A stretch of DNA of 64,000 nucleotides, taken from Burkholderia pyrrocinia. GTDB lineage: Bacteria > Pseudomonadota > Gammaproteobacteria > Burkholderiales > Burkholderiaceae. The position numbers and the translations under genes are program-made. Below, piece after piece: positions 20,781 to 42,714 of this stretch; the first letter of the stretch is position 1; each line of letters opens with the position of its first letter. A model generated the notes under the pieces. The model made no database searches and was not told where the DNA came from. It was given only the letters and a program-made list of their open reading frames with translations. Location of the stretch: contig NZ_CP024903.1 in NCBI RefSeq assembly GCF_003330765.1, forward strand, positions 3,224,001-3,288,000, in the 5' to 3' direction.

Positions 20781-20798
20781 TCCCGAAAAGGCTCACCT
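20781..20798 (-). repeat. Dispersed RepA-type iteron 1
   Basis: Plus-strand TCCCGAAAAGGCTCACCT is the complement of AGGTGAGCCTTTTCGGGA, an exact match to the origin consensus AGGTGAGNNTTTTCGGGA, about 15 kb away from the array. Confidence 0.75.
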
Positions 20799-20802
20799 GA
20801 CA

Positions 20803-20820
20803 TCCCGTAAAGACTCACCT
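20803..20820 (-). repeat. Dispersed RepA-type iteron 2
   Basis: Plus-strand TCCCGTAAAGACTCACCT; one or two mismatches to the consensus; 22 bp (two helical turns) from iteron 1 and in the same orientation. Confidence 0.68.
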
Positions 20821-21035
20821 TTTTCACATCGTGGCGTCATCGCCGCGTGCGAAGATCGGGCCGCCGGGCGCCGTCCGGACCGTTTTCACCGTTTGCCTCA
20901 ATATTTGCGCGGTCAACCCTTCTATTTAAGCAACAATTAATTCCAATTGCGGCATCGCACAACAGCGGCGCACAGGCATACGATTACGACCTTACGAGCA
21001 CTCATCCACGAAGCGATCAACAACAAGGAGTCCGC

Positions 21036-21776
21036 ATGAAGCCCAGCGATGTCCGATCGAAAGCGTTTGCAATGCCGTTGACCAGCCCTGCCTTCCCGAT
21101 GGGTCCTTACCGTTTCGTCGATCGTGAGTTTCTGATCATTACGTATCGCACCGATCCGGACCTCCTCCGCGCAATCGTCCCCGAGCCCCTGCAGATCACC
21201 GAGCCGCTCGTGCATTACGAGTTCATCCGCATGGCCGATTCGACCGGCTTCGGCGACTACACCGAAAGCGGCCAGGTGATTCCCGTCGAATACAACGGCC
21301 AGCCGGGCGGCTACACGCTCGCGATGTATCTCGACGACCACCCGCCGATCGCCGGCGGCCGAGAACTGTGGGGCTTCCCGAAGAAGCTCGCGTCGCCCAC
21401 CCTGCACGTGAACACCGACCACATCCTCGGCACGCTCGACTACGGCAAGGTGCGCGTCGCGACCGGCACGATGGGCTACAAGCACAAGGAACTCGACATC
21501 GACGAGCAGACGAAGCGCCTCGCCGGTCCCAATTTCCTGCTGAAGATCATCCCGCACGTCGATGGCACCGCCCGCGTGTGCGAACTGGTGCGCTACTACC
21601 TGCAGGACATCAAGATGAAGGGCGCGTGGACAGGCCCCGCATCGCTCGAGCTGGCGCCGCACGCGCTCGCGCCCGTGGCCGACCTGCCCGTGCTCGAGAT
21701 CGTCGAAGCCCGGCACCTCGTAGCAGATTTGACACTTGGCCTCGGTGAAGTCGTCTACGATTACCTGGCTCAGTAA
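21036..21776 (+). CDS. adc: Acetoacetate decarboxylase
   Basis: A 246-residue acetoacetate decarboxylase that converts acetoacetate to acetone and CO2. The Schiff-base lysine lies in the ELWGFPKK motif (K116/K117), preceded by the conserved PPIAGGRE. Length and N-terminus ([14 protein letters not shown]) match the family, and AAGGAG stands before the ATG. It is followed after 52 bp by 3-hydroxybutyrate dehydrogenase, so acetoacetate made from polyhydroxybutyrate or ketone-body turnover can be decarboxylated or reduced. The upstream region holds two dispersed iterons. Confidence 0.93.
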
Positions 21777-21828
21777 CACGTCCGCAGTCCTTTCTCCCTG
21801 TCAATCCTTTCACCACGGGAATTCGAAC

Positions 21829-22614
21829 ATGAGCAACCTGAATGGCAAGACCGCAGTCGTCACGGGCGCCGCGAGCGGCATCGGCAAGGAAATCGCACTC
21901 GAGCTCGCCAAGGCGGGCGCGGCCGTCGCGATCGCCGACCTGAACCAGGACGGCGCGAACGCGGTCGCCGACGAGATCAACAAGGCGGGCGGCAAGGCGA
22001 TCGGCGTCGCGATGGACGTGACGAGCGAGGAAGCGGTCAACAGCGGCATCGACAAGGTGGCCGAGACGTTCGGCTCGATCGACATCCTGGTATCGAACGC
22101 GGGCATCCAGATCGTCAACCCGATCGAGAACTACTCGTTCTCCGACTGGAAGAAGATGCAGGCGATCCACGTCGACGGCGCGTTCCTGACCACGAAGGCT
22201 GCGTTGAAGCACATGTACAAGGACGATCGCGGCGGCGTCGTGATCTACATGGGTTCGGTGCACTCGCACGAAGCGTCGCCGCTGAAGTCGGCCTACGTGA
22301 CGGCCAAGCACGGGCTGCTCGGTCTGGCGCGCGTGCTGGCGAAGGAAGGCGCGAAGCACAACGTGCGTTCGCACGTCGTGTGTCCGGGCTTCGTGCGCAC
22401 GCCGCTGGTGGACAAGCAGATTCCGGAGCAGGCGAAGGAGTTCGGGATCAGCGAAGACGAAGTGATCAAGAAGGTGATGCTCGGCAACACGGTCGACGGC
22501 GTGTTCACGACCGTGCAGGACGTCGCGCAGACGGTGCTGTTCCTGTCGGCATTCCCGAGCGCCGCGCTCACGGGCCAGTCGTTCATCGTCAGCCACGGCT
22601 GGTTCATGCAGTAA
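21829..22614 (+). CDS. bdhA: D-3-hydroxybutyrate dehydrogenase
   Basis: A 261-residue short-chain dehydrogenase. The N-terminal cofactor motif is TGAASGIG, then VSNAGIQ, the catalytic SAYVTAKHG (Tyr and Lys three apart) and the family signature [15 protein letters not shown], which is typical of 3-hydroxybutyrate dehydrogenases. It interconverts D-3-hydroxybutyrate and acetoacetate with NAD. The ORF is open 93 bases upstream into adc, but the ATG taken ([11 protein letters not shown]) gives the family N-terminus. It is co-directional with adc and the patatin gene downstream, suggesting a PHB mobilisation operon. Confidence 0.93.
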
Positions 22615-22740
22615 CGCCCCCGCCTCCCGAACGGGAGGCGATTATTCCCGCACCACCGCTTATTCTCACGACGGAATGCCGTCTGTCGACGGCACGCCGT
22701 TCGTCTCCGCCATCAACGGCGGAATTTTTCGGAGCAACTG

Positions 22741-23958
22741 ATGAAACCGCACGCCCGTACCGAAAAGCAGGCCGTCGATGCGGCGGACCTGCATCACGAA
22801 GCCGGCGCGCCGGCCCCCGCGCGGTCGCTGCCGTACGAGACGATCGCACTCGTCCTGCAGGGCGGCGGCGCGCTCGGCGCGTATCAGGCCGGCGTGTTCG
22901 AAGGGCTGCACGAGGCGGGCGTTCCGCTCGACTGGATCGCAGGCATCTCGATCGGCGCGCTCAACACCGCGCTGATCGCCGGCAATGCGCCCGAGCATCG
23001 CGTCGAACGGCTGCGCGAGTTCTGGGAAACGATCTGCAAGCCGGCGTTCTTTCCCACGGTTCCGGCCGCGTTCGAGTTCGCGCTGTTCAACAGCATCGAC
23101 CAGATCCGCACGTTCTTCACCGCGTCGCAGGCCGCGAGCGCGATGATGCAGGGCCAGCAGGGTTTCTTCGTGCCGCGCTTCCCGCCGCCGCTGCCGGGCG
23201 TGTCCGACCATCCGGAGAAGATCAGCTGGTATGACACGTCGCAACTGCGCGCAACGCTGCTGAAGCTGTGCGACTTCGACCGGATCAATTCGGGCGAAAC
23301 GCGCGTGTCGGTCGGCGCGGTCAACGTCGGCACCGGCAACTTCGTGTACTTCGACAACTCGCGCATCCGTCTGGCGCCCGAGCATTTCATGGCGTCCGGT
23401 GCGCTGCCGCCCGCGTTCCCGCCCGTCGAAATCGACGGCGAGTATTACTGGGACGGCGGCGTCGTGTCGAACACGCCGCTGATGGAAGTGCTCCGCGCAC
23501 GTCCGCGTCGCGACACGCTCGCGTTCCAGGTCGATCTGTGGAGCGCGCGCGGGCCGCTGCCGCGCACGATGGCCGACGTCGCCGAGCGCACGAAGGACGT
23601 GCAGTATTCGAGCCGCACGCGTTTCGTCACCGACACGCTGCAGCGCGAACAGCGCTACCGCAACGTGCTGCGCCACGTGCTCGACCAGGTGCCGGAAGAG
23701 CAGCGCAAGGCCGATCCGTGGTGCGTCGAAGCTGATGCGATGTCGTGCAGCAAGAAGTACAACATCCAGCACCTGATCTACCAGCAGAAAGCGTACGAGC
23801 ATCACTACAAGGACTATCAGTTCGGTCTGTCGACGATGCGCGACCACTGGACCGCGGGTCTCGACGACATCCGCAAGACGCTCGCTGTGAAGGACGGCCT
23901 CGCGCTGCCCAACAACGACGCGGGCTTCGTGACGCACGACATTCACCGCAAGCGGTAA
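22741..23958 (+). CDS. Patatin-like phospholipase with DUF3734 domain
   Basis: A 405-residue patatin-family hydrolase. The oxyanion-hole motif is LQGGGALGAYQAG (about residue 40), the nucleophile serine is in GISIGALN and the catalytic aspartate is in WDGGVVSNTPL. The C-terminal third matches DUF3734 (CSKKYNIQHLIYQQKAYEHHYKDYQF). Such proteins commonly accompany bdhA in Burkholderia and have been linked to lipid or PHB granule turnover. GGAGCAACTG precedes the ATG. It lies 126 bp after bdhA. Confidence 0.88.
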   Translation: MKPHARTEKQAVDAADLHHEAGAPAPARSLPYETIALVLQGGGALGAYQAGVFEGLHEAGVPLDWIAGISIGALNTALIAGNAPEHRVERLREFWETICKPAFFPTVPAAFEFALFNSIDQIRTFFTASQAASAMMQGQQGFFVPRFPPPLPGVSDHPEKISWYDTSQLRATLLKLCDFDRINSGETRVSVGAVNVGTGNFVYFDNSRIRLAPEHFMASGALPPAFPPVEIDGEYYWDGGVVSNTPLMEVLRARPRRDTLAFQVDLWSARGPLPRTMADVAERTKDVQYSSRTRFVTDTLQREQRYRNVLRHVLDQVPEEQRKADPWCVEADAMSCSKKYNIQHLIYQQKAYEHHYKDYQFGLSTMRDHWTAGLDDIRKTLAVKDGLALPNNDAGFVTHDIHRKR

Positions 23959-23982
23959 CGTCGTGCGCAACGGATCGGCGCG

Positions 23983-24483
23983 ATGCATGCGCTGGTCCGT
24001 CCTCTTCTCCGATCCGACATGCCGATTTTCATTGCACTGTTCGCGCTCATCGCTGCTGGATGGGGCGCGGTTCACCTGTTTCACGTCATCGCCGCGCAGT
24101 TCGGCCAGCCGGTCGCGATCGCGGCCGCCGTGCTCGCCGCCGCGATCCTGATCGCGCTGATCGCATGGTGGATCAAGCGCCGCCGCGACATCGCACCGAA
24201 CACGAAGGAAGAAGGCTGGACGCACATCGTGCATCGCGCGTGGGGCGAGTTGCGCGTGTCCGCGACGCAGGGGCTGCTGTGGCTGTCGCACGACGGCGCG
24301 GACGGCCGCTATACGCTGTCGCAACTCGACGGCTGCCAGGCCGCGCCGATCGGCGGCCGCTGGCATCTCGTCGTGCGCGTGCGCGATGCCGTGCGCAGCG
24401 AATGGAAGCTGCCGATGACGGACAAGCGCGATGCGCAGCGCTGGGCGCGCGTGCTCATGCTCGCGAAAGACAACCGGCTGTAA
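23983..24483 (+). CDS. Hypothetical membrane protein with two N-terminal spans
   Basis: A 166-residue protein. Residues 13-35 (PIFIALFALIAAGWGAVHLF) and 42-66 (VAIAAAVLAAAILIALIAWW) are hydrophobic, followed by a basic KRRRD stop-transfer and a soluble domain of about 95 residues with several tryptophans (TKEEGWTHIVHRAWGELRVS). No family recognised. An ATG at 24019 (MPIFIALF) is an alternative start; the upstream one has GGATCGG before it. It lies 24 bp after the patatin gene, so is likely in the same transcript. Confidence 0.65.
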   Translation: MHALVRPLLRSDMPIFIALFALIAAGWGAVHLFHVIAAQFGQPVAIAAAVLAAAILIALIAWWIKRRRDIAPNTKEEGWTHIVHRAWGELRVSATQGLLWLSHDGADGRYTLSQLDGCQAAPIGGRWHLVVRVRDAVRSEWKLPMTDKRDAQRWARVLMLAKDNRL

Positions 24484-24602
24484 CGTGCGTAACGTGCGAA
24501 CGGATCGGCGCCGTCGTCGCGCAGGTTCAATGGTGATGTGCACGACGTCGCGCCGCTCACGTTTCGACTTCGAACGCTCCGCCGGTCACGCGCGGTTCAT
24601 CG

Positions 24603-24620
24603 TCCCGTAAAAGCTCACCT
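24603..24620 (-). repeat. Dispersed RepA-type iteron 3
   Basis: TCCCGTAAAAGCTCACCT on the plus strand; it lies in the gap between the membrane-protein gene and the convergent LysR gene, which ends at 24631. Confidence 0.7.
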
Positions 24621-24630
24621 TTGGCCGGTC

Positions 24631-25554
24631 TCAGGCCGTATCGTCGCCCGCTGCGGCATTCAGGCCGGCCAGCGTCTCCACCAGAAAATCCACGCACACA
24701 CGCACTTTCGCCGACGCCGCGACGCGTTCCGGATAAACCGCCCAGATGTTCGCAGGCTGGATCGCGTCCGGCAGCACGCGACACAACGCGCCGCGTTCGA
24801 TCAGCGGCCCGGCTTCCCAGATCGAGCGCAACACGATCCCGCGCCCGGCCAGCGCCCATTGCACGGCCACCTCGCCGTGGTTCGTCGACAGCGCGCCGCC
24901 GACTTTCACAGTTGCCGTTTCTCCGCGCACGTTCAGCCGCCAGACGCCGAACGGGTGATCGCGCTCCTTGATCGCGAGACAGTCGTGCGACGCGAGATCC
25001 GCGAGCGAGCGCGGCGTGCCGCGTCGTGCGAGATAGTCGGGCGACGCGCACAGCACGCGGTAGTTCGCGGCGAGGCGGCGCGCGATCAGGTGATTGGAGA
25101 TCTCGTCGCCGATGCGCACGTCGAGGTCGTAGCCTTCGCCCGCGACGTCGACGAGCCGGTCGAACAGATCGAGCCGCACGTTCAGTTGCGGATAGCGCGC
25201 GGAGAAATCGAGCAGCGCCGGCGCGACGACGTGCCGGCCGAAGCCGAAGCTGCTCGACATGCGCAGCGTGCCGCGCGGCACCGTGCGCGTCGTCGACACG
25301 TCCTCGACGAGATGATCGACGTCGTCGAGAATCTTCTCGGCGCGCGCGAACACGCGTTCGCCGGCTTCCGTCACCGTCACGCGGCGCGTCGAGCGATGCA
25401 GCAGGCGAGTGCCGAGCTGCGCCTCGAGCAACGCGATGCGCTTGCTGACATACGCGGGCGACACCGCGAGTTGCTCGGCGGCCGCGCTGAAGCTTGTCAG
25501 GCGGACGACCAGGCTGAACACGCGCAGGTCGTCGAGGTTCGGCGATTTGTTCAC
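24631..25554 (-). CDS. LysR family transcriptional regulator (DmlR-like)
   Basis: A 307-residue LysR protein starting at a GTG: VNKSPNLDDLRVFSLVVRL, then AAAEQLAVSPAYVSKRIALLE as the recognition helix, and an effector domain with RIGDEISNHLIARRL. The subgroup with SPAYVSKR is the DmlR type. It is divergent from a tartrate/D-malate dehydrogenase gene, the same arrangement as dmlR-dmlA, and probably activates it. The same frame remains open far upstream (to 27126) on the strand opposite dmlA, but that part is an antisense artefact. Confidence 0.88.
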   Translation of the reverse strand: MNKSPNLDDLRVFSLVVRLTSFSAAAEQLAVSPAYVSKRIALLEAQLGTRLLHRSTRRVTVTEAGERVFARAEKILDDVDHLVEDVSTTRTVPRGTLRMSSSFGFGRHVVAPALLDFSARYPQLNVRLDLFDRLVDVAGEGYDLDVRIGDEISNHLIARRLAANYRVLCASPDYLARRGTPRSLADLASHDCLAIKERDHPFGVWRLNVRGETATVKVGGALSTNHGEVAVQWALAGRGIVLRSIWEAGPLIERGALCRVLPDAIQPANIWAVYPERVAASAKVRVCVDFLVETLAGLNAAAGDDTA

Positions 25555-25671
25555 GATTCGTGGAGAGTCGATTAACCTTTCGCGTGATTTTAATCCGAAT
25601 GGAAATAAATAGAATGGCGTGACGCGCCGCTGCATCCCCCGGCAGCCGGCCGACCAGCCAAGGAGCTTTGC

Positions 25672-26757
25672 ATGACCGACAGGACTTACAGAATTGCCGT
25701 GATCCCCGGCGACGGCATCGGCCGTGAAGTGATGCCCGAGGGCCTGCGCGTGCTCGACGCAGTGACCGCGCGCTTCGGCGTCCGCTTCGACTTCGAACAG
25801 ATCGACTGGGCCAGCTGCGACTACTACGCGCAGCACGGCAAGATGATGCCGGACGACTGGAAGGCGCAGTTGTCGGGCATGGACGCGATCCTGTTCGGCG
25901 CGGTCGGCTGGCCCGCGACGGTGCCCGATCACATTTCGCTGTGGGGCTCGCTGCTGAAATTCCGCCGCGAGTTCGACCAGTACATCAACCTGCGGCCCGC
26001 GCGCCTGTTCGACGGCGTGCCGTCGCCGCTCGCCGGCCGCCGCGCGGGCGACATCGACTTCATGATCGTGCGCGAGAACACCGAGGGCGAATATTCGTCG
26101 GTCGGCGGCACGATGTTCGAAGGCACCGAGCGCGAAGTCGTGATGCAGCAGTCGATCTTCACGCGTCACGGCACCGAGCGCGTGCTGAAATTCGCGTTCG
26201 AGCTCGCGCAGCGGCGCGCCGGGCGCCTCACCGTCGCCACGAAGAGCAACGGCATCGCGATCAGCATGCCGTGGTGGGACGCGCGCGCGGCCGAGATGGC
26301 CGAACGCTATCCCGAGATCGCCGTCGACAAGCAGCACATCGACATCCTGTGCGCGCGCTTCGTGCTGCAGCCCGACCGCTTCGACGTCGTCGTCGCGTCG
26401 AACCTGTTCGGCGACATCCTGTCCGATCTCGGGCCGGCCTGTACGGGCACGATCGGCATCGCGCCATCGGCGAACCTGAATCCCGACCGCAAGTTTCCGT
26501 CGCTGTTCGAACCCGTGCACGGCTCCGCGCCCGATATCACGGGGCAGTACATCGCGAATCCGGTCGCGATGATCTGGTCGGCGGCGATGATGCTCGACTT
26601 CCTCGGCGAGGGCGCAGGCCGCGAACGCGAAGCACACGATGCGATCGTCGCCGCGATCGAGGACGTGCTGCGCACCGGGCCGCATACGCGCGATCTCGGC
26701 GGCAACGCAGGGACGCAGGAAGTGGGCGAAGCGATCGCCGCGCGGATTGCGGGCTGA
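25672..26757 (+). CDS. dmlA: Tartrate dehydrogenase / D-malate dehydrogenase (decarboxylating)
   Basis: A 361-residue member of the isocitrate/isopropylmalate dehydrogenase family, TtuC/DmlA subgroup. Motifs: IPGDGIGREVMPEG near residue 10, FGAVGWPATVPDHISLWG, IVRENTEGEYSSVGG, TKSNGIAISMPWWD and the metal-binding NLFGDILSDLGPACTGTIGIAPSAN. It oxidises D-malate or tartrate with NAD and a divalent metal. CAAGGAG lies before the ATG. The LysR gene is divergent across 117 bp. Confidence 0.9.
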   Translation: MTDRTYRIAVIPGDGIGREVMPEGLRVLDAVTARFGVRFDFEQIDWASCDYYAQHGKMMPDDWKAQLSGMDAILFGAVGWPATVPDHISLWGSLLKFRREFDQYINLRPARLFDGVPSPLAGRRAGDIDFMIVRENTEGEYSSVGGTMFEGTEREVVMQQSIFTRHGTERVLKFAFELAQRRAGRLTVATKSNGIAISMPWWDARAAEMAERYPEIAVDKQHIDILCARFVLQPDRFDVVVASNLFGDILSDLGPACTGTIGIAPSANLNPDRKFPSLFEPVHGSAPDITGQYIANPVAMIWSAAMMLDFLGEGAGREREAHDAIVAAIEDVLRTGPHTRDLGGNAGTQEVGEAIAARIAG

Positions 26758-27152
26758 CGATCGGGCCCGGCGCGGGCGATCGCGCCGGGCAGGGACGTCA
26801 CGAATCAGCCGGCGGTGAGCAACACGCGATGTGTTTGCGCACCTATGCAGGTTGCGATGCGTGCACGGTGAAATCGAGCGGTGAGCAACGACAAGCGGCA
26901 ACGCACACTGCTTGCGCTGTCTCTCGTCGAAATCGATCCGATCGGTGAGATGCACATCATGTTCATGCACACCGATCGTCGATGCGCTGTCGGACCGGCG
27001 CGATCGGTGAGATGCATCTTGTGGTGAAGCACACCGTTGCACGTCGATACATGCATGACGTAATGCCGACGTGCGCGGCGTGTCCGGTATGTACGGTGCG
27101 ATGCCGCGTCGATCTGCTCGAAGCACACAGTCCGACGCGACATTTCACCGGG

Positions 27153-27170
27153 TCCCGAAAAACCTCACCT
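27153..27170 (-). repeat. Dispersed RepA-type iteron 4
   Basis: TCCCGAAAAACCTCACCT on the plus strand is an exact complement match to the origin consensus. Confidence 0.75.
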
Positions 27171-27183
27171 TCAGCGCATCGAC

Positions 27184-27201
27184 TCCCGAATTTCCTCACC
27201 A
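27184..27201 (-). repeat. Dispersed RepA-type iteron 5 (degenerate)
   Basis: TCCCGAATTTCCTCACCA on the plus strand; 31 bp (three helical turns) from iteron 4, same orientation, three mismatches in the T-run and last base. Confidence 0.55.
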
Positions 27202-27248
27202 TCGAACACAGGTGATGCGTTCGCCAATCCGCTGAATGGACGCGAACC

Positions 27249-27728
27249 TCACAGCCCGAGATCGGACAACCCCGGATGATCGTCCGGACGGCGGCCGAGC
27301 GGCCAGTGATAGAGACGATCTTCCTCGCGAATCGGCAGGTCGTTGATGCTCGCGTGACGATGCGCCATCAGGCCGTTTTCGTCGAACTCCCAGTTTTCGT
27401 TGCCGTACGAACGAAACCAGTTGCCGGCGTCGTCATGCCATTCATAAGCAAAGCGCACCGCGATGCGATTGCCGCCGAACGCCCACAGCTCCTTGATCAG
27501 CCGGTAGTCGAGCTCGCGCGTCCATTTCCGCTGCAGCAGCCCGACGATCTCGTCGCGGCCGGTCACGAATTCCGCGCGATTGCGCCATCGGCTTTGCGGC
27601 GTATAGGCGAGCGACACACGCTGCGGGTCGCGCGTGTTCCACCCGTCCTCGGCGGCGCGTACCTTCTGGCGCGCCGTTTCGAGCGTAAAGGGCGGAACGG
27701 GCGGGCGGACTTCGGGGGAAGCGGACAT
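27249..27728 (-). CDS. NTF2-like protein, DUF1348 family
   Basis: A 159-residue NTF2-fold protein of the DUF1348 family: [70 protein letters not shown] and the tail [11 protein letters not shown]. Members have no firm function; some act as small cone-shaped hydrolases or isomerases. It begins 63 bp downstream of the TetR gene stop on the same strand, so it is probably co-regulated by that TetR. Confidence 0.82.
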
Positions 27729-27791
27729 GGATTGCTCCTGTTCAGGTTCTGGCCACGGACAACCGCGGCCGGTTCGGATTCGCTGCGTCGA

Positions 27792-28397
27792 CTACCGGGA
27801 CACGGCGTCGAGCAGCAGTTCGGCCGTTGCGCGCGCATCGCGCGCGGCGTTTGCATCGCCGCTGACGAGCGCCACGCCGATCGCGCCGTCGATCAGCACG
27901 AGCCACTGACGCGCGATGCGCGCAAGCCCGCGGCGCTCGATGCCCGTTTCGTCGGCATACGCATCGAACCGCTCGCGCACGAATGCCAGCAGGCGCGCCT
28001 TGTGTGTGCGCGCGACGACGCGCACGGGATCGTCGGCATCGGGAATCTCACCCGACGCGTTCAGGAACGCGCAGCCGTGAAAGTCGGGCTGCCCGAACCA
28101 GTCGCGCAGCACATCGAACATGCCGAGCAACTGCGCGCGCGGCGCCTTGCCGCGCGCATGGGTTGCGTCGACGAACCAGCGCATCCAGCGCGCGTCGCGG
28201 CGCTCGAGCGCGGCGACAACCAGCGCCTCTTTCGATTCGAAATGCGAATAAAAGCTCTTTCGTGCCGCGCCGGATCGCTTCACGATCGCATCGACGCCGG
28301 TTGCGTGGATACCGCCCGAATAGATCAGCGCTTCGGCCGCGTCGAGCAGCCGGTCGCGAACGCCCGGTTCGCCGGAGGGATCGAGATGTGTGTTCAT
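27792..28397 (-). CDS. TetR family transcriptional regulator
   Basis: A 201-residue TetR regulator. The N-terminal helix-turn-helix spans about residues 14-60 (VRDRLLDAAEALIYSGGIHATGVDAIVKRSGAARKSFYSHFESKEAL); the C-terminal ligand domain includes FHGCAFLNASGEIPD, characteristic of the subgroup that carries CAFLN. Upstream the frame is open to 28541 but the ATG chosen gives the family N-terminus and sits just after a perfect 18-bp palindrome, a probable self-operator. The NTF2-like gene follows it. Confidence 0.88.
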   Translation of the reverse strand: MNTHLDPSGEPGVRDRLLDAAEALIYSGGIHATGVDAIVKRSGAARKSFYSHFESKEALVVAALERRDARWMRWFVDATHARGKAPRAQLLGMFDVLRDWFGQPDFHGCAFLNASGEIPDADDPVRVVARTHKARLLAFVRERFDAYADETGIERRGLARIARQWLVLIDGAIGVALVSGDANAARDARATAELLLDAVSR

Positions 28398-28406
28398 GCG
28401 TTTACG

Positions 28407-28424
28407 GTAGAACGATCGTTCTAC
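28407..28424. promoter_or_regulatory. Perfect palindrome, presumed TetR operator
   Basis: GTAGAACGATCGTTCTAC is an uninterrupted 18-bp palindrome lying 10 bp before the TetR start codon. Confidence 0.72.
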
Positions 28425-29107
28425 GTCGTCAACACCCGTGTGAAAAAGCCCTGCCGGCGAGAGGGCTGAATCGCGCCGGAAGCCGCGACGTTGCTGCTGT
28501 TCCGCTTCGTGACGTGCGTGCTCGTCAGCTTCTGGCTGCAAGCGGATGCGTTACGCGCCTACCGGTACGCGGCGCAACACGGGTTCATCACGGTTCCTGG
28601 CTCGCACGGCGACCTGATCGACGTTGCGCCGCAGTGCCCGAAACGCTGGCTCGTCGTGGTGAGTCTCCAGTTCGAACCGTGAGGGATGAATGGTGAACGG
28701 ATCAAGTCGTGGCCTGCGCACCGCTCGATGCCGATCGCATCGCGCATGAGTGAGTCGCAACGAGGTTCGCGAACTCACGGCTGGCATCTCGGTTCGACAC
28801 CGCATTGCATACGGTGTGTCGCAAACGATCGCCCGGCAAACGAAACCGGGAAGCGCGTGGAAGAGGAAGAACAGGCACCGAATGGCGTGATGGGCGGAAG
28901 CGAGGCGGGGCTGGCAGGCCGGTGCGACAGGTGAAGCGAACGTGCGATGGCAAGTCACCGATGCGCGATCGTGCCGCGATTCGGCACGCAAACACAGCTC
29001 CCGAATAATCTCACCTTAAGCCCGGATTCAAGCGTTCCGACTTCGAAAACGCAGAGGTAAACGAAAGCGGGGCAGGCGGCGAACGCGCCGCACTGCCCCT
29101 TCGACAC
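28425..29107. other. Intergenic region without a recognisable gene, one iteron
   Basis: About 680 bp between the TetR gene and tdh. The only open frame of note (28491-28682, 63 codons) has no ribosome-binding site or family features. One iteron lies at 28999-29016. Confidence 0.5.
28999..29016 (-). repeat. Dispersed RepA-type iteron 6
   Basis: TCCCGAATAATCTCACCT on the plus strand. Its flanks CACAGC before and AAGC soon after match those of iteron 7. Confidence 0.65.
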
Positions 29108-30136
29108 TCAGGCCGTCCAGTCGAGAATCACCTTGCCGCTTTCGCCGGACAGCATCGCGGCGAAGCCTTTCTCGTAATCGTCGGCCGCAAAGCGGTGCGT
29201 GATGATCGGCGACAGGTCGAGGCCGCTCTGCAGCATCGCGACCATCTTGTACCAGGTCTCGAACATCTCGCGGCCGTAGATGCCCTTGATCTCGAGCCCC
29301 TTGAAAATCACCTGGTTCCAGTCGATCGCTGTCTGCGCGGGCGGGATGCCGAGCAACGCGACCTTGCCGCCGTGGTTCATCGCCTCGAGCATGCTCGTGA
29401 ACGCACTCGGCACGCCCGACATTTCGAGACCGACGTCGAAGCCTTCGGTCATGTGCAGGTCGGCCATCACGTCGCGCAGCGACTCGCGTGCGACGTTGAC
29501 CGCACGCGTCGCGCCCATCTTGCGCGCGAGCTCCAGCCGGTAGTCGTTGATGTCGGTGATGACAACGTTGCGCGCGCCGACGTGCTTCGCGATCGCGACG
29601 GCCATGATGCCGATCGGGCCCGCACCGGTGATCAGGACGTCTTCGCCGACGAGGTTGAACGACAGCGCCGTGTGCGTCGCGTTGCCGAACGGATCGAAGA
29701 TCGACGCGAGATCGTCGGAGATCTCGGGCGGAATCTTGAACGCGTTGAACGCCGGAATCGCCAGATACTCGGCGAACGCGCCTTCGCGGTTCACGCCGAC
29801 GCCGACCGTGTTGCGGCACAGATGCCGGCGCCCGGCGCGGCAGTTGCGGCAGAAGCCGCACGTGATGTGGCCTTCGCCGGACACGCGATCGCCGATCGCG
29901 AAGCCGCGCACCTCCTGCCCCATCTCGACGATCTCGCCGACATATTCGTGGCCAACGTGCATCGGCACGGGAATCGTCTTCTGCGCCCAGTCGTCCCACT
30001 TCCAGATATGGATGTCGGTGCCGCAGATCGCCGTGCGGCGGATCTTGATCAGTACGTCGTTGTGTCCGACTTCGGGACGCTTCACGCGCGTGAGCGTGAG
30101 GCCGGGGCCGCGTTCGAGCTTTGCCAGTGCTTTCAT
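29108..30136 (-). CDS. tdh: L-threonine 3-dehydrogenase
   Basis: A 342-residue zinc-dependent medium-chain dehydrogenase. The catalytic-zinc cysteine is in [16 protein letters not shown] (about residue 38), then [12 protein letters not shown], the structural-zinc cysteine cluster [15 protein letters not shown] and the NAD fold GAGPIGIMA. It oxidises threonine to 2-amino-3-oxobutyrate, which the product of the upstream kbl gene cleaves with CoA to glycine and acetyl-CoA. It follows kbl by 13 bp on the same strand. Confidence 0.95.
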
Positions 30137-30149
30137 GATCGCGCCTCCG

Positions 30150-31349
<1,200 letters not shown>

Positions 31350-31457
31350 CGCAAAGCTCCTGACAGGGATTCGCATTCCGCAGCGCACCGCTCGTGGCGG
31401 CGGCGCAACGGCCTGCTACTGTTATAGTCGGTCGTTCGGTTGACCGCATTTATCCGA

Positions 31458-31481
31458 TATTCCGAACTAGAATTCGAAATA
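31458..31481. promoter_or_regulatory. Inverted repeat in the kbl/XRE divergent promoter
   Basis: TATTCCGAA, 6 bp, TTCGAAATA: a dyad with one mismatch in 9. It is a candidate operator for the adjacent XRE-cupin regulator, 30 bp before its start. Confidence 0.55.
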
Positions 31482-31510
31482 CCGAACAACTCTAAGCGAA
31501 CGGAATCCAA

Positions 31511-32122
31511 ATGGCAAGTTCCTCCGGATCGCGGCGCACGCCCGCCAGCGCCGCGCCGCAGCAGCCGGCCGCCACGCCGCCGCGTGTGGGCGAGCAGATC
31601 CAGCGGCTGCGCAACGAGCGCAAGCTGACGCTCGACGACCTGTCGCGCGCGGCCGGCGTATCGAAATCGATGCTGTCCGAAATCGAACGCGACAAGGCCA
31701 ACCCGACGATCGCCGTCGCCTGGCGGCTGACGAACGCGCTCGGCATCACGCTCGACGAGCTGTTCTCGCAGCCGAAGGCGCCCGAGACGATCCGTGTAGA
31801 CGGCCCGCACGACATTCCGACGCTCGCCGGCCACGACGGCCGGTACCAGTTGCGCGTGTGGGGCCCGATCGACCTCGCCGGCAAGTTCGAGTGGTACGAG
31901 CTGACGCTGCCGGGCGGCGGCGCGCTGGTATCGAACGCGCACGAACCCGGCACGCGCGAGCACCTCACCGTGCTGCAGGGCGCGATGGAGATCGAAGCCG
32001 CGGCGGCAAGCCGGCGCCTGAAGGCCGGCGACACCGCGCGCTACCCGGCCGACGAGCCACACGCGATCCGCAACCTCGGCAAGGCCGAGGCGCGGGCACT
32101 GCTGATCGTGATACATCGCTGA
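31511..32122 (+). CDS. XRE family regulator with C-terminal cupin domain
   Basis: A 203-residue two-domain regulator. Residues 25-85 form the helix-turn-helix (GEQIQRLRNERKLTLDDLSRAAGVSKSMLSEIERDKANPTIAVAWRLTNAL) and residues 120-200 a small cupin (EPGTREHLTVLQGAMEI, then LKAGDTARYPADEPHAIRNLG) that would bind an effector. The N-terminal 24 residues are low-complexity Ala/Pro/Ser. It is divergent from kbl-tdh, so threonine catabolism is the probable target. An inverted repeat sits in the shared promoter. Confidence 0.88.
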   Translation: MASSSGSRRTPASAAPQQPAATPPRVGEQIQRLRNERKLTLDDLSRAAGVSKSMLSEIERDKANPTIAVAWRLTNALGITLDELFSQPKAPETIRVDGPHDIPTLAGHDGRYQLRVWGPIDLAGKFEWYELTLPGGGALVSNAHEPGTREHLTVLQGAMEIEAAAASRRLKAGDTARYPADEPHAIRNLGKAEARALLIVIHR

Positions 32123-32162
32123 CTGCGCGTATAGCTGGCCAAAAGGCCAGTTGCGGAAAGCA

Positions 32163-32178
32163 CTGTATATTTGTACAG
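32163..32178 (+). promoter_or_regulatory. LexA-box-like palindrome (SOS)
   Basis: CTGTATATTTGTACAG fits CTGT-N8-ACAG, with the flanking A and T extending the symmetry. It lies 75 bp before the ATG at 32253. Confidence 0.6.
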
Positions 32179-32252
32179 TATACGGACATTCCGCCATGTA
32201 TCGGCCGGAGCCGGCGCACCGAGGCGCCCGCCCCGGTCGACAGGAGCCTGCG

Positions 32253-32630
32253 ATGACAGAAGAACAAGATTTGGCCGCGCTCAGCTTCAAGGCTGCCGCG
32301 CACGACCTCGAGCTGATCGTTCGCCATATTGCCGGGCGCTACATCCGTCAGCGCGTCCCGCTGACGTGGCGCCTGCTGCACGCCATCGAAGCCGAGGCGC
32401 TCGCCGATCTCGGCTTTGCCAGCCGGCACGAGGCCGGCATGCGTCAATTGTTCGAACGGCCGTCGGACATGACGTTTCCCGAAACGGACGATCCGATCGA
32501 CTTCGGGCGCTCGAATGCGCTGCCCGCCGTCTTTTCGTTCGCGGTTCTCGCGTACGAAGCGGCGGCAACGTCGCATGACGCGGCGCCTCGCGAGCGCGCT
32601 CACCGTCTGTCCAACGCGTGGGGCGACTGA
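32253..32630 (+). CDS. Hypothetical protein, possibly SOS-regulated
   Basis: A 125-residue soluble, acidic-to-neutral protein with no recognised family (MTEEQDLAALSFKAAAHDLELIVRHIAGRYIRQRVPLTW). Predicted mostly helical, with no membrane segment or signal peptide. The ATG has CAGGAGCC upstream; a longer frame from 32151 overlaps the operator region and is rejected. A LexA-like box lies in its promoter. It precedes the recombinase-like gene by about 100 bp. Confidence 0.65.
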   Translation: MTEEQDLAALSFKAAAHDLELIVRHIAGRYIRQRVPLTWRLLHAIEAEALADLGFASRHEAGMRQLFERPSDMTFPETDDPIDFGRSNALPAVFSFAVLAYEAAATSHDAAPRERAHRLSNAWGD

Positions 32631-32731
32631 CTGCCAGCCCAGGCCGCCGAACCTGGCGGCCTGTCCAGCCTCTTGCTGCCCGAGACGTTGCGGAAAGGGC
32701 TACCATATACGCAACTAACGGAATAAATAAC

Positions 32732-33745
32732 ATGTCCCTTCCCGCCTCTCCCGACACCCCGGCACGCCCAGAAGAGAAGGATCTGTTCGATCGCGGCGCA
32801 TCCGACTGGATCGTCTCGCCCGAAGTCGCATTCGACGCGTGGCTGGCCATGCAGGACTATCGCCGCTCGTCAGCCGACGTATATCGCGCGCAATGGGGTG
32901 CCTTCCTCACCTGGCTGCGCACACATCAGAAAAATCTGGCGACGGTCGATACGCCAACGATCGCAAATTTCGTCGGCGAGTTGCCGATCCGGAAAACCCA
33001 ACGAATGCGCTATCTGCGGCTGATCGAGCGTGTGCTCGACCACATCCGGCGCACCGAATACGCATCGACCAACCCTGCCCGTTTCATTGCTCAGGATGGC
33101 GAAGCGAACTGGCGAAAGGCTCGCGACAACGAACCAACCGGTTTCCTGACGCCGGCCGAGCGCGCAACGTTGCTCGCCTATCTGTTTTCGCCGATCGGCG
33201 TATCCGGTTCCGCCTACTGGAAGGAGCGGCGCGATCGCGCACTCGTGGCCGCGTTTCTCGGCGCCGGCATCAAAACCGGTGAAGCACGCGCACTTACGAT
33301 TAGTTGCATCAATACGAGCGGTACATCGCTGCAGATCCAGTCGACCCATCCGGATTTCGCACGCGAAACCCATCTGGCATCGTTCGCGATCGCACTGCTC
33401 GAAGCATGGCTCACGGAGCGCAAGCGCCAGGAAATTCCGGGGGAGCTGGTGTTCCCGGCATCGCATGCCGGGCGGCCGATGCACAAGGCGACGATGCTGC
33501 GCGCCATCGACGCGATCGTCGAATCGGCCGGGCTCACGTCGTCGCGCACCGCGCGCGCGAGCCCGCAAACGCTGCGCAATACCTACGCGGCCGAATTGTT
33601 CGAAAACGACGTGCCGCCCGAACGGGTCGGCAGATGGCTGGGCTTCATGCGGCCGATCTCGTCGAATCGCCTGCATCGCGCATGGAAAAACTGGCGCGAT
33701 GGCCTGGCAGACGGTGACGCGTCCGACAGCGACGAAGCTCGCTGA
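32732..33745 (+). CDS. Tyrosine-recombinase-like protein with degenerate active site
   Basis: A 337-residue protein with the two-domain layout of phage integrases: an N-terminal SAM-like core-binding domain (about residues 30-120, YRRSSADVYRAQWGAFLTWLRTH) and a C-terminal catalytic fold (150-330). Box I reads FLGAGIKTGEARAL, with lysine where the catalytic arginine normally is. Box II reads SPQTLRNTYAAELFEN, with glutamine for the first histidine but the arginine kept. No tyrosine follows at the expected place (GFMRPISSNRLHRAW). It may be an inactive DNA-binding relative serving the nearby origin rather than a working integrase. No att sites were seen. Confidence 0.75.
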   Translation: MSLPASPDTPARPEEKDLFDRGASDWIVSPEVAFDAWLAMQDYRRSSADVYRAQWGAFLTWLRTHQKNLATVDTPTIANFVGELPIRKTQRMRYLRLIERVLDHIRRTEYASTNPARFIAQDGEANWRKARDNEPTGFLTPAERATLLAYLFSPIGVSGSAYWKERRDRALVAAFLGAGIKTGEARALTISCINTSGTSLQIQSTHPDFARETHLASFAIALLEAWLTERKRQEIPGELVFPASHAGRPMHKATMLRAIDAIVESAGLTSSRTARASPQTLRNTYAAELFENDVPPERVGRWLGFMRPISSNRLHRAWKNWRDGLADGDASDSDEAR

Positions 33746-33816
33746 TCCGGAAACGGCTGCTCACGCGAAACGATCCGTGAGCAGCCTTGCATGGCGTAGC
33801 CTCACCGTTCCACAGC

Positions 33817-33834
33817 TCCCGAAAAACCTCACCT
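33817..33834 (-). repeat. Dispersed RepA-type iteron 7
   Basis: TCCCGAAAAACCTCACCT on the plus strand, identical to iteron 4, in the gap between the convergent recombinase-like and kfrA-like genes. Confidence 0.75.
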
Positions 33835-35081: not shown

Positions 35082-35457
35082 TGAAATGTAGCAATCATAA
35101 CGAAATACGTATTCCCTGATACTGATTCCGGCTCGACGTTGTGAATTTACGTCGCTTTGCACAGAACTCGGGTCTGTGAGCCAATCCGGACGAACGCAGT
35201 CCAGGATTCCGTGAAACAAAGCGAAGAAAGTCAGCCAAGTCCTTGTAGTACAAGCATTTTCCAGCAGACTCCGAAATCCGGCATTTGTTTCACATGATGA
35301 ACGGTCCGATTGCTCGTGGGTGTTCGGGGTTTGGGGTATCTGTGGAAAACTCTTCAGCCGATGTCTTGAGAGTATTAGAAGTAAACACCCTTGAACCCTT
35401 AGTTAAAAACGTTAACGCCACGGCACAGCCTTATGTAGCAAGGCTTTCCGGCCGACA

Positions 35458-36766
35458 AGGTGAAGTTTTACGGGAGCCAAGGTGATCTTCTGCGGGAGCT
35501 GAAGTGATGGGGTTCGGGGAGCTGCGTGAGCCGTTGCAGGAAAGGTCGTGAGCGGATTCGGGATCACAGTGAAACACGAGATTTCCCAAAGGTGAGGGTT
35601 TTCGGGGCCGCACAGCCACAGAACCCGCGCTGTGCCTGCCTGCACAGTTTTCTGCCTGTGCAGACATAGGTGAGAATTTGCAGGACCCTCTTCGCGCCCC
35701 GATTCTGCCCATCTTTTGGGCAGTTTTTACGAAAGGTGAGGTTTCACGGGACTCCACGGAACTTGGGTGTGAGGATTTCCGGGAAGCGAACGTCATTTTG
35801 CACAGCAAAAGTGCTCTCCGGGGCCTGTGATGCCCTAAAGGTGAGGCTTTTCGGGAGGGAAATGCGGGTTTTCCTGCCCCGATCCTGGTGAGGTGAGCTT
35901 TTTCGGGGCATGGATCACAGGCTGTGATCCGGGGCACAGGTGAGCATTTTCGGGAACGGTATTTGCTCGAAAAATGGTCAAAGGTGAGGCTTTTCGGGAC
36001 CTGTGAGCGGCCTGATTCGCCGAAAAGCCCGCCAGGACTGGAAGAAATCTCGTTTTTGCTGTGCCACTTTTTGGCACAGGTGAGATTTTTCGGGGGCCGT
36101 CACATGGTTGTCGTATGAAGGATTCCCGTCGAAAGGTGAGGTTTTTCGGGGGATGCCTGCGAGGCACAGCCAAATGCCTTCTGCGCATAAGTATCGGAAG
36201 GCATTGGGATTTTTGATACCGCGGCAGTTACGGTGAGGTTTTTCGGGAGCCATTCCCGTGCCCGTTGCTGCACCGCATTTTTTCAATAAGGTGAGTGTTT
36301 TCGGGAGTCTCTGCTAGTCAATCCCGCGTGTGTCGGGCGTTCGTCGGCATCTGGACGAAAGAACAAGCTGTGCTCAAGGTGAGAATTTTCGGGGCCCGAC
36401 ACGGTTTGTGCACTGTACAATGCGCGCCCGGGCCGGCAAAGCAGGTCCGATCGGGTCGCGCGGGCGGGTTTCGAAGGCGTCTTTCCGGATGCCGGAGCCG
36501 ATCGCGATCTCCCGGTGAGCCGTGCCTGTACATGCATACAGCCCGATGCGCGGTAATCGGGGGGGCACTGTGAGGTGCAATCGCGACCCTGTGCCGAACT
36601 CACGGCTGCGCAGTCGTAAAATTACGACAAACTGAAAGGTGAGCCGATTCGGGAGCGAATTTCGCACGTGTCGAGCACAGGTGAAATTCTGTGATCCGGC
36701 GCATCCCGCGACACGTCTGGAAGAGTCCGGAACGCTGCAATTCCAGACCGGTGAGCGTTTTCGGGA
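35458..36766 (+). repeat. Iteron array, consensus AGGTGAGNNTTTTCGGGA
   Basis: Well conserved 18-bp copies begin at 35590, 35734, 35839, 35891, 35938, 35982, 36078, 36134, 36231, 36289, 36377, 36637 and 36749. Weaker copies begin at 35458, 35480, 35502, 35668 and 35767. All are direct, in the repA direction. Spacing is tightest (44-58 bp, or about twice that) between 35839 and 36377. Constant parts are GGTGAG and CGGG with a T-run between. These are the presumed RepA binding sites. Confidence 0.88.
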
Positions 36767-36885: not shown

Positions 36886-38253
36886 ATGGCCACGACGAAG
36901 CGCGCCAAGAAAACCGATGTGGATGTGGTGAGTGCCAGCTCAGCCGAATTGCGCAAGGCCGTCGAGGCGATCGCGATTCAGCCGAAGAGCGGCAAGATCA
37001 CGCTCCTGACCCGCAAGCTGTTCAACGTCCTGCTGGCCGTGGCGCAGCAGGCCGACGACTCGGGCGATACGTATCGCGCGCTGCTGTCGGATATCGTCGC
37101 AAACTCCGCCTTCGATTCGAACGACACTGCGCTGGTGAAGGAACACCTGCGCCGCATGGTGTCGGTGCAGGTCGAATGGAGCACGGGGACGTCGAGCCAG
37201 AAGCCGGGCCGCAAGTGGGGGATCTCGACGCTGATCGCCGACGCGGAAATTCTCGAAGATCCGGCGACCCGCCGCGTGTGGGTCGAATTCTCGTTCGCGC
37301 CGAAGATCAAGAAGAAGCTGCTCGACCCGGTCCAGTATGCGCGCCTGAGCCTGCAGTTCCAGAGCCAGTTGCGCAGCAGCGCAGGTCTCGCGCTGTACGA
37401 AATCTGCGTGCGCTATCTGACCAATCCGAGCCACCTGACGATGCGCGAGCCGTGGGAATGGTGGCGGCCGATCCTGTCGGGCACGCCCGACACGGAAGCC
37501 GGCGACGAGGCGAAGCGCGAGTACAAGTACTTCAAGCGCGACTATCTGCGTCCCGCGATCGCGGAAGTCAACGCGGTCACCAATATCTTCGTCGAACTGA
37601 TCGAGCATCGTGAAGGGCGCCGGGTCGCGGAGATCCAGTTCCGCGTGACCGAGCGCAAGCAGCCGATGCTCGCGCTCGACGAACACCCGAACGTGTTCGA
37701 CAGTACGCTGGTCGACCGGATGGTGAAGCTCGGGATCCCGCTGAAGGAAGCGCAGACGCTCTATGCGGACAGCGAGGAGAACCGCATTCGTGCCGCGCTG
37801 CAGATGACCGAGCAGCGGTTGCGCAGCACGACGCTGCCGCCGGTGCGCAGCGCGCCGGCGTTGTTCAAGGATGCGCTGAAGAAGGGTTATGCGCCGCCGG
37901 TCGAGTCGGTCGACGCGCTGCCTGCCGGCACGCCGTCCGCGAGGGTCGCTGCGGCCCAGCCGGACGATCTGAAGGCGCGTCTGCTGAGCGAATTCGCAGC
38001 GTTCCGCCGCAAGGAAGCGAAGGTGCTGTACGAAGAGCAGGGCGACGCCGAGCGCGAGGTGGCGCGCGAGTCGTTCGAATCGGAGGCGCTGCCGACGATG
38101 GGCTCGCATCTGCGCGACGACTGGCGCAAGCGCGGCCTCGATTCCAAGCTGGCCGAGACGACCTTTTTCGACTGGCTGGCCCAGAAGACCTGGGGCGAGC
38201 CGACGGACGGCGACCTGCTGTCGTTCACGCTGAACCAGTCGCGGGCCGTTTGA
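36886..38253 (+). CDS. repA: Replication initiator RepA (Rep_3 superfamily)
   Basis: A 455-residue initiator. Two winged-helix regions are visible: residues 35-130 (KITLLTRKLFNVLLAVAQ, then NDTALVKEHLRRMVSVQVEW) and residues 160-265 (LSLQFQSQLRSSAGLALYEICVRYLT, then KYFKRDYLRPAIAEVNAVTNIFVELIEHREGRR), a pattern of iteron-binding plasmid Rep_3 proteins. The C-terminal 150 residues are a charged extension not found in small plasmid Reps. It sits directly after the iteron array and is convergent with parB. It should bind the iterons, open the origin and recruit the helicase, making this replicon plasmid-derived. Confidence 0.88.
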   Translation: MATTKRAKKTDVDVVSASSAELRKAVEAIAIQPKSGKITLLTRKLFNVLLAVAQQADDSGDTYRALLSDIVANSAFDSNDTALVKEHLRRMVSVQVEWSTGTSSQKPGRKWGISTLIADAEILEDPATRRVWVEFSFAPKIKKKLLDPVQYARLSLQFQSQLRSSAGLALYEICVRYLTNPSHLTMREPWEWWRPILSGTPDTEAGDEAKREYKYFKRDYLRPAIAEVNAVTNIFVELIEHREGRRVAEIQFRVTERKQPMLALDEHPNVFDSTLVDRMVKLGIPLKEAQTLYADSEENRIRAALQMTEQRLRSTTLPPVRSAPALFKDALKKGYAPPVESVDALPAGTPSARVAAAQPDDLKARLLSEFAAFRRKEAKVLYEEQGDAEREVARESFESEALPTMGSHLRDDWRKRGLDSKLAETTFFDWLAQKTWGEPTDGDLLSFTLNQSRAV

Positions 38254-38345: not shown

Positions 38346-39407
38346 TCACTCCGACAACAGCATCCGCTCGAGCTGCTCGAGGATCGCGTCGCGCTTGTCC
38401 TTCGGGAGGCCGCGCAGGCGCAATTCGATGCGGTCTTCGCCATACGACTTCAGGTCGCCGACCGACTTGCCGCCAAGCTTGATCTCGAGACGCTGCGCAT
38501 AGCGCTGACGGCCCGCGGCTTTCGGCGTCTCCTGCGCAGCGACGCGCCCCTTGACGATGTCCGACACCTGGCGCGTGCTGAGATCGTCCGACACGATCTT
38601 GTTGATCAGCCGCAGCGTGGCCTCGGTGCCGCGCGCATTGTGATAGCGGCCGACCTGATACGCCATGTTCGAGCCGAAGCGATCGGGGCGCGCGACCATT
38701 TCCTGCATGATGGCTTCCGGCAACTTGCCGATCGACAGCGCGACGGCCACCGTCGACTCGTCGAGACCGAGGTGCTCGGAGAGCTCCTTCTGGCTCTGGA
38801 AATGCTGGTCGTCGAGGAAGCGGCGCCACACGACGGCATTGTCGAACACCGTCTGCGAATCGCGCTGGACGTTGAGATCGTAGCCGAGCTTGTAGCTCTG
38901 GATGCCGATCGGCACGTCGATCACGATCGACTTGACCAATTCCTTGTTCGCTTCCTTCAGCGCCCGCACGCGGCGGCCGCCATCGCTGACGAAATACGTG
39001 CCCGGGTTGTCGTAATCCGGAATCACGTGGATCGCCTGCTGTTGCCCTTGCTTCGCGAGGTTGACCGCGAGTTCGGCAATCGACGACTTCAGATAGAAGT
39101 GCCGCGGGTTGAACGGGCTATGCTTGATCGCCTTCAGCGACAGCTCGATCACCTGCCCCGGCGCATAGCGGTTCTCGAGGCGCCACGCGCGATATTGCGG
39201 CGATTCGTCGATCGACGGATCGAGCGTGAGTTCCGGAGCGGGCGGCGGCGCGATGTCTTTCTTCGCGGATTTGGTCGGAGCCGGGGTGGGCGTCTCGGAT
39301 TTGACGATGCCGTCAATCGCATTGAGCCGATCGAGCGCCGTGCGCTTCTCGCTCGTCGTGATATCCGGGCGCGCTTGGAATCCTTTTGCAAATTGGGAAG
39401 GTTTCAT
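38346..39407 (-). CDS. parB: Chromosome partition protein ParB
   Basis: A 353-residue ParB/RepB-type partition protein. The N-terminal half has a ParB/Srx-like nuclease-fold domain (SPFNPRHFYLKSS, QGQQQAIHVIPDYDNPGTYFVSDGGRRVRALKEA) that binds CTP in this superfamily. The central helix-turn-helix (SQKELSEHLGLDESTVAVALSIGKLP) recognises parS. The C-terminal part ends in a dimerisation region. AAGGAG precedes the ATG. It lies 23 bp after parA, and a parS-like palindrome overlaps the ribosome-binding region between the two genes. Confidence 0.92.
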   Translation of the reverse strand: MKPSQFAKGFQARPDITTSEKRTALDRLNAIDGIVKSETPTPAPTKSAKKDIAPPPAPELTLDPSIDESPQYRAWRLENRYAPGQVIELSLKAIKHSPFNPRHFYLKSSIAELAVNLAKQGQQQAIHVIPDYDNPGTYFVSDGGRRVRALKEANKELVKSIVIDVPIGIQSYKLGYDLNVQRDSQTVFDNAVVWRRFLDDQHFQSQKELSEHLGLDESTVAVALSIGKLPEAIMQEMVARPDRFGSNMAYQVGRYHNARGTEATLRLINKIVSDDLSTRQVSDIVKGRVAAQETPKAAGRQRYAQRLEIKLGGKSVGDLKSYGEDRIELRLRGLPKDKRDAILEQLERMLLSE

Positions 39408-39414
39408 GTGACTC

Positions 39415-39430
39415 CTTTGTGCGCATAAAG
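39415..39430. promoter_or_regulatory. parS-like site between parA and parB
   Basis: CTTTGTGCGCATAAAG, 13 of 16 matching GTTTATGCGCATAAAC, directly adjoining the parA stop codon and overlapping the parB ribosome-binding site. Confidence 0.65.
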
Positions 39431-42347: not shown

Positions 42348-42714
42348 GTCTGGGTGGCAGTGTCTCGAAGCGATCGCGCTTGCGCCATAGAGCGGGCGCG
42401 TCGCGGTGCCAGCAGCTTACTGGGCGCGGTGCCGGCCTGCAACGCATGTTCCGTCACGAATTCACGAAACCGGCCGGCGCGCTGCGCTATGCTTGCCGAA
42501 ACCCGTATCGCGCGTCGATGGCGCTGCGCGGCGGGCAGTTTGTAACGTCAGAACATAACGGCCGAGTTATCCACAATTTCTGTGGAAAACCTTGTGGAAA
42601 GTCGGCCGGACGGCCCCGTGGGGCGGTTCACGGGCTGGCTTGCCTATAAACAGACCTTTGTCGCCTATTCAGAAGCAATCGATCCGATTCTTCACTCACC
42701 GGAAGGAGAACGCC
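42348..42714. promoter_or_regulatory. Divergent region with DnaA-box-like cluster
   Basis: A 367-bp gap. TTATCCACA, the perfect DnaA consensus, is at 42567-42575. TGTGGAAAA (42581-42589) and TGTGGAAAG (from 42595) follow in the opposite orientation. A TATAAAC at 42646 could be a -10 for the reductase gene. Confidence 0.6.

Follow-up and report, generated by a model that had tools for sequence, protein, structure and literature searches.

Why should copies of a replication-origin iteron stand singly or in pairs many kilobases away from the origin, and in reverse orientation? The question arises at positions 20781–33834 of the Burkholderia DNA analysed here (the window, 64,000 nucleotides, G000:C2:3224001-3288000), where seven 18-bp sequences resemble the iterons of the chromosome 2 origin. 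The origin array itself (35458–36766, plus strand) lies directly left of repA (36886–38253, plus strand), the gene of a Rep_3 initiator. Judging from sequence comparison, the remote copies are probably RepA sites kept by selection outside the origin, where they would most likely serve dispersed negative control of replication by titration of RepA or by handcuffing of sites.

The genome comprises 8.0 Mb in three contigs, C1, C2, and C3, of 3,619,008, 3,400,486, and 984,905 bases, respectively. The array contains 15 copies with at most two mismatches to the iteron word AGGTGAGNNTTTTCGGGA, against which all mismatches are counted, and additional, more degenerate copies. These direct iterons adjoin an initiator gene whose product has the Rep3_N and Rep3_C (WH1 and WH2) domains and presumably binds them, an arrangement that defines a Rep_3 iteron replicon. 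As RepA is 99% identical to RepA of the Burkholderia cepacia complex, e.g., B. paludis and B. anthina, we take the replicon to be Burkholderia chromosome 2, the species being likewise deduced.

Distribution of iteron copies in the genome

All seven left-hand sites are on the minus strand and the array copies on the plus strand, as an earlier reading of the letters alone (below, the sequence-only reading) had reported; the coordinates proved correct, as did the 22-bp and 31-bp spacings within the two pairs. Sites 20781–20798 (no mismatches) and 20803–20820 (one mismatch), paired at a spacing of 22 bp, lie upstream of an acetoacetate decarboxylase gene, in a divergent gap; site 24603–24620 (one mismatch) is in a convergent gap adjoining a LysR-family gene; site 27153–27170 (no mismatches) shares another convergent gap with the weaker site 27184–27201 (three mismatches, 16.9 bits), 31 bp away; site 28999–29016 (one mismatch) follows the 3' end of a tdh-like zinc-dehydrogenase gene; and site 33817–33834 (no mismatches), the most widely conserved one, lies where a phage-integrase-family gene and a KfrA_N gene converge. 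The sites at 28999–29016 and 33817–33834 have a common GCTGTG extension after the iteron, in its reading direction, which is frequent at both positions in other genomes and apparently not constant in the array.

Such positions bear on the possibility that the sites are operators, through which RepA would tie regulation of the neighboring genes to the replication cycle. The pair upstream of the acetoacetate decarboxylase gene is placed as an operator would be; of the five left loci, however, three are in convergent gaps (24603, 27153/27184, and 33817) and one is behind a 3' end (28999), leaving one in a divergent gap, and one more site is inside a gene. Thus, the suggested link to the promoters of adc, tdh, and the LysR-family gene finds little support, and we consider regulation of neighboring genes highly improbable. 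The gaps were defined by a simple home-made gene finder, which missed small genes and misplaced one start.

Over the whole genome, 36 matches with at most two mismatches were found, compared to one in the reversed-pattern control by which the chance level was gauged; with at most three mismatches, the numbers are 78 and 21, so that lone three-mismatch sites, such as 27184, weigh little. An excess over chance therefore holds for the six left sites with no or one mismatch, and 27184 is weak when taken alone. By replicon, 30 of the 36 matches are on C2, four on C3, and two on C1. Those on C2 are distributed, relative to repA, as follows: 15 belong to the array, six are left-hand sites (−16.1 to −3.1 kb), seven are at a locus approximately 140 kb to the right, and single copies are at −44 kb (two mismatches, to the left) and at +13.2 kb. 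The genome-wide scan that the sequence-only reading had proposed thus finds every C2 copy either at the 140-kb locus or in a zone extending from −44 to +13.2 kb relative to repA. The set is neither limited to 15 kb, given the copy 44 kb to the left and the array with satellites about 140 kb to the right, nor one-sided, given a plus-strand site at 50049; the seven left-hand sites are indeed intergenic, while the right-hand one is inside a gene. A few scattered matches elsewhere were also seen in the four other genomes listed in full (G001, G008, G020, and G031), e.g., C2:959689 and C2:752224 in G001, and C2:752631 and C2:2142613 in G020.

Conservation of the remote sites

Forty-one genomes were sampled, and the origin flanks were fetched for 15 of them, picked for contiguous assemblies, yielding 14 left flanks (20–40 kb each) and 14 right flanks (20 kb each) for comparison. 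All 79 left matches outside the array with at most two mismatches are inverted. Thirteen of the 14 genomes have an inverted counterpart of 20781/20803, located between −16.9 and −19.3 kb (−17.9 kb in G030, −18.1 kb in G006), and counterparts of 24603 (at −12 to −13.4 kb), 27153 (at −9.6 to −10.8 kb), and 28999 (at about −7.9 kb) are each present in 12, all except G030 and G006, two divergent genomes to which only a part of the site positions is common. The counterpart of 33817 is present in all 14 flanked genomes. In a wider scan of the best 80 out of 219 RepA loci, 78 had enough left sequence; these named loci span Burkholderia, Paraburkholderia, Caballeronia, and Trinickia, and in 76 of them (L058 and L088 being the exceptions) the 33817 counterpart is inverted and lies 2.8–3.9 kb left of repA. 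The array zone of the named loci contains 1033 plus-strand and no minus-strand matches, the control yielding one match in 1.64 Mb.

The site columns are 0.93–0.99 identical in 13 genomes, compared to 0.53–0.93 in the 25 bases flanking the left sites on either side, a contrast to be read with the caveat that the ungapped alignment of best-match rows understates flank identity, most of all at −18 and −10 kb, and hence favors the sites. In two Trinickia loci, L080 and L081, the remote iterons left of repA are far more numerous and occupy both strands (six to ten listed for each).

The right-hand site, 50049–50066 (plus strand, one mismatch), is located inside a squalene/phytoene-synthase gene (SQS_PSY, 49712–50479; presumably hpnD), 13.2 kb right of the repA start. 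Each of the 14 right flanks has exactly one plus-strand counterpart, at +13.17 to +13.91 kb. Here, the flanks are conserved almost as well as the site (0.96 and 0.92, compared to 0.99), which suggested a mere coding coincidence; the codons argued otherwise. The site codons are TCG GTG AGG ATT TTC GGG. The arginine codon is AGG in 15 out of 15 genomes, although AGG accounts for 1.3% of the 1228 arginine codons in the window; the isoleucine codon is ATT (12 genomes) or ATA (three) and never ATC, although ATC accounts for 85% of the 852 isoleucine codons. At the 13 other invariant arginine and isoleucine positions of the stretch compared, CGN and ATC overwhelmingly prevail, exceptions being AGG in one of the 15 genomes at one position and ATT in three at another. 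Since the site was found through the iteron word, rare codons are expected in its own genome, and the evidence comes from their retention in the 14 others, which points to selection acting on the nucleotide word.

The same observations bear on the explanation that the remote copies match the word by chance or are decaying remnants of duplicated origins. In its favor, site 27184, with its three mismatches, is on a level with the 21 control matches per genome. It is contradicted by the single control match per genome at two mismatches or fewer, by the conservation of the −3 kb site across genera, and by the rare codons held in all 15 genomes, so that we regard chance or relics as extremely improbable.

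Orientation of the iterons and the 140-kb locus

Directly left of the array is a conserved AT-rich block (35341–35445) with a DnaA-box-like TTTTCCACA on the minus strand, a candidate melting region and the likely melting point of the chromosome 2 origin. Seen from this block, the array, the right-hand site, and the array at the 140-kb locus face right, and the left-hand sites face left; three satellites at the 140-kb locus are the exceptions.

This second array (C2:911-1181) consists of 12 units with an exact 23-bp pitch, some of them degenerate (one scores 3 bits), and adjoins a 190-aa gene without a Pfam match; the three satellites (C2:3398138-3398478, L011), inverted with respect to the array, are 2.0–2.3 kb before the contig start, beside an H-NS-family gene. 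A reading frame at C2:1-620 (L009) appears by eye to be broken, possibly as a pseudogene or through an assembly error. Du et al. (2016; PMC4948915), in their S1 Table legend, mention a second cluster of chromosome 2 iterons in B. cenocepacia J2315; hence the locus is already known, and its conservation, geometry, and satellites are added here.

In 20 fetched genomes and our own (21 loci), the second array is always present, with 2–12 copies at three mismatches or fewer, all on one strand (two loci have two copies). Each of the 21 loci has exactly three further copies, all inverted, with spacings of 301 bp (in 20 loci; 302 bp in one) and 22 bp (in all 21). The sequence between the satellites diverges, and in the two most divergent genomes insertions and deletions cancel in length. 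In 32 out of 41 genomes, repA and the 140-kb locus are on the same contig, 103–273 kb apart (median 148 kb, on the right-hand side). The second array is directed away from the origin in 32 out of 32, including three with the locus on the opposite side; its strand was scanned or listed in 22 genomes and taken from the neighboring gene in 10.

Such regularity invites the explanation that orientation itself is the key feature, in that the fork leaving the origin would meet each iteron in the same direction, stripping RepA or pausing in a polar manner, or RepA loops would fold the origin domain. The left sites on the minus strand and the array and right site on the plus strand, all facing away from the AT-rich block, the outward direction of the 140-kb array irrespective of the side, and the inverted cluster on the left of both arrays conform to it. 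The satellites, which face the origin, the plus-strand left sites in Trinickia and one Burkholderia, and the reliance on a neighboring gene in 10 of the 32 strand assignments do not, and we consider this explanation unlikely.

Iterons on the other chromosomes

C3 carries its own Rep_3 initiator, 36% identical to RepA of chromosome 2, and its iteron consensus is aGGTAgCcgttTATGGGa; the chromosome 3 iteron given by Du et al. (2016; PMC4948915) is tCCCATAAacggntACCtnt. Approximately 1.6–1.8 kb upstream of the chromosome 3 initiator gene, on the plus strand, we observed a pair of chromosome 2-type iterons (C3:841401-841451; L013 6401-6451). Thirty-four genomes have a chromosome 3 initiator; among 20 of these that were fetched and our own, 19 of the 21 contain at least one chromosome 2-type copy at the chromosome 3 origin (G021 and G028 have none), and 17 contain two copies 32–34 bp apart, the distance being exactly 33 bp in 14. 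Scores of the pair copies range from 13.8 to 27.5 bits for the chromosome 2 matrix and from −16.9 to −4.0 for the chromosome 3 matrix. For the 14 pairs with a distance of exactly 33 bp, identity is 0.95 and 0.92 in the two sites, 0.66 in the spacer, and 0.57 and 0.69 in the flanks, a contrast partly built in, since the pair rows were picked by score. A further inverted chromosome 2-type copy with orthologous flanks is located 18–36 kb left of the chromosome 3 initiator gene in seven of the 20 fetched genomes and in our own.

In the opposite direction, no chromosome 3-type words were found at the chromosome 2 origin, save chromosome 2 iterons matching at three mismatches. A general habit of dispersing chromosome 3 words was considered and rejected, as 12 of the 16 matches in our own genome (at most two mismatches) are at the origin and four elsewhere, compared to five in the control. 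One of these four outliers, at C3:855345-855362, has one mismatch and is about 12 kb right of the chromosome 3 initiator gene.

More tentatively, RepA may govern or read chromosome 3 via this iteron pair, in an initiator relay leading from the second replicon to the third, in which the fork-oriented remote iterons and the 140-kb array would time replicon 2; this wider scheme seems to us conceivable rather than probable.

On chromosome 1, iteron-word matches are few: two in our own genome, none in G001, three in G008, and one each in G020 and G031. No conserved iteron-type site was found there in our own genome, G001, G008, G011, G020, or G031, by a search that would miss a crtS-like site of a different sequence; in terms of the iteron word, there is thus no candidate for crtS-type licensing from chromosome 1. 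A match common to G008, G011, G020, and G031 was rejected as a licensing site, since it is one orthologous stretch inside an adenine-methyltransferase gene (MethyltransfD12), in what we take from the neighboring gene types to be a prophage. The other four fetched matches (941233 and 1620112 in our own genome, 177051 and 235564 in G008) have no counterpart among the 13 fetched stretches.

Alternatively, the sites could be positive elements akin to crtS or DARS, which would remodel RepA or pass it on to the origin; copying of the 140-kb locus or the chromosome 3 pair would then act as a timer. The fixed 301/22-bp geometry of the satellites resembles a built complex more than plain titration, and crtS of V. 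cholerae, an initiator site off the origin, can activate (PMC3937223). The remote words, however, are ordinary iterons, and the six genomes examined have no conserved chromosome 1 site; such elements are, in our opinion, also unlikely here.

A probable role in negative control of replication

The remote word is that of the origin iteron, its place and strand are kept, and the copies cluster near the origin of one replicon; hence titration or handcuffing, which had been among the suggestions of the sequence-only reading, remains the best interpretation. The arrangement agrees with that of a titration locus: the replicon carries, beyond its origin, sites of the initiator type that are close enough for early copying. 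According to this model, the remote sites would bind RepA and pair with the array through RepA–RepA contacts, and the doubling of sites soon after initiation would leave less free RepA and block a second start. At the fork rate of 33 kb/min published for B. cenocepacia (Du et al., 2016; PMC4948915), forks would pass the near sites within approximately half a minute and would arrive at the 140-kb array some 4.3 min into a replication period of 51 minutes. The inverted cluster left of each array would suit RepA-held loops between inverted and direct copies. If the chromosome 2-type pair at the chromosome 3 origin is also bound, the same pool of RepA may influence the third replicon or be sensed by it.

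Several observations weigh against this interpretation, in addition to the alignment bias mentioned above. The strand rule is not absolute: beyond 3.9 kb left of repA, the named loci contain 40 minus-strand and nine plus-strand matches, the latter from Trinickia (eight) and B. guangdongensis (one). Five left loci on one strand are weak statistics on their own, and the genomes compared are related rather than independent. Convergent gaps are modestly overrepresented (P 0.032, based on gap length). In addition, the 140-kb satellites are directed towards the origin. Finally, a scan of 60 family genomes with a strict 23-bp tandem pattern, which misses diverged arrays, did not reveal the second array in other genera: eight genomes gave matches, namely, all five of our own genus (8–11 matches each) and three of the 55 others (one match each).

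Other features of the origin region

Right of repA are parB (38346–39464) and parA (39431–40093), both on the minus strand and with uncertain starts (39407 and 40030, respectively, according to the gene finder). They are followed by two exact copies of GTTTATGCGCATAAAC, at 40193 and 40556 (40193–40571), and looser ones at 40746 and 40871, which we take to be parS-like. Scanning the window with TTWTNCACA yielded seven matches, and among these the match at 20820 is the one that touches a remote site. Approximately 5.7 kb right of the repA start, at 42567–42589, the plus strand carries a perfect DnaA box, TTATCCACA; 14 bp from it, TTTTCCACA is found on the minus strand.

Comparison with known systems

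The coordination of several chromosomes in one bacterium has been worked out mainly in Vibrio cholerae, and a 2026 survey states that "timers" in additional systems are still to be identified (PMC13342612). Presumed RepA words of fixed place and direction, together with the chromosome 3 pair, provide a testable idea of how copying of several chromosomes may be kept in step; the map names short removable sites, whose loss, if the idea is true, should shift the copy number of chromosome 2 or chromosome 3.

Neither remote initiator sites nor a second cluster are new in kind. For B. cenocepacia J2315, Du et al. (2016; PMC4948915) give the chromosome 2 iteron consensus ctCCCGAAAAacCTCACCTtt and, in the legend of S1 Table, place the second cluster 140 kb from the origin and mention other repeats throughout the genome; both the consensus and the distance are the same as observed here. 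The authors inferred that regulation of the Burkholderia chromosome 2 origin departs from the mode typical of plasmids. Compared to the accessible part of that paper, the present analysis contributes the map, orientation, conservation, and proposed function of the outlying copies, as well as the copies at the chromosome 3 origin. In the portions of the open-licence literature covered, we found no report of the inverted-site map, the coding site with rare codons, the 301/22-bp satellites, or a conserved chromosome 2-type iteron pair at the chromosome 3 origin.

Likenesses and differences can be seen with three known elements, as far as the available text of the cited sources goes. Escherichia coli datA resembles the remote sites as a locus of initiator titration at no great distance from the origin, and differs in having DnaA boxes and residing on the main chromosome (PMC3937223; PMC6090056). 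V. cholerae crtS, like the chromosome 3 pair, is a site of one replicon's initiator on another replicon; it is, however, located on chromosome 1 and not described as an iteron, whereas the Burkholderia sites are of the iteron type and at the chromosome 3 origin (PMC3937223; PMC6090056; PMC13342612). The closest parallel, and the one drawn by the sequence-only reading, is with V. cholerae chromosome II, where external RctB sites 40 kb from the origin inhibit its replication (Baek and Chattoraj, 2014; PMC3937223): in both cases, sites for the initiator of a secondary chromosome are located outside the origin, near it, and are copied early. The parallel is apt, yet the initiators differ (RctB in V. 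cholerae, Rep_3 RepA in Burkholderia), and Burkholderia has inverted single and paired sites within 20 kb and a 12-unit array at 140 kb, an orientation rule of its own, and an extension of the set to a third replicon.

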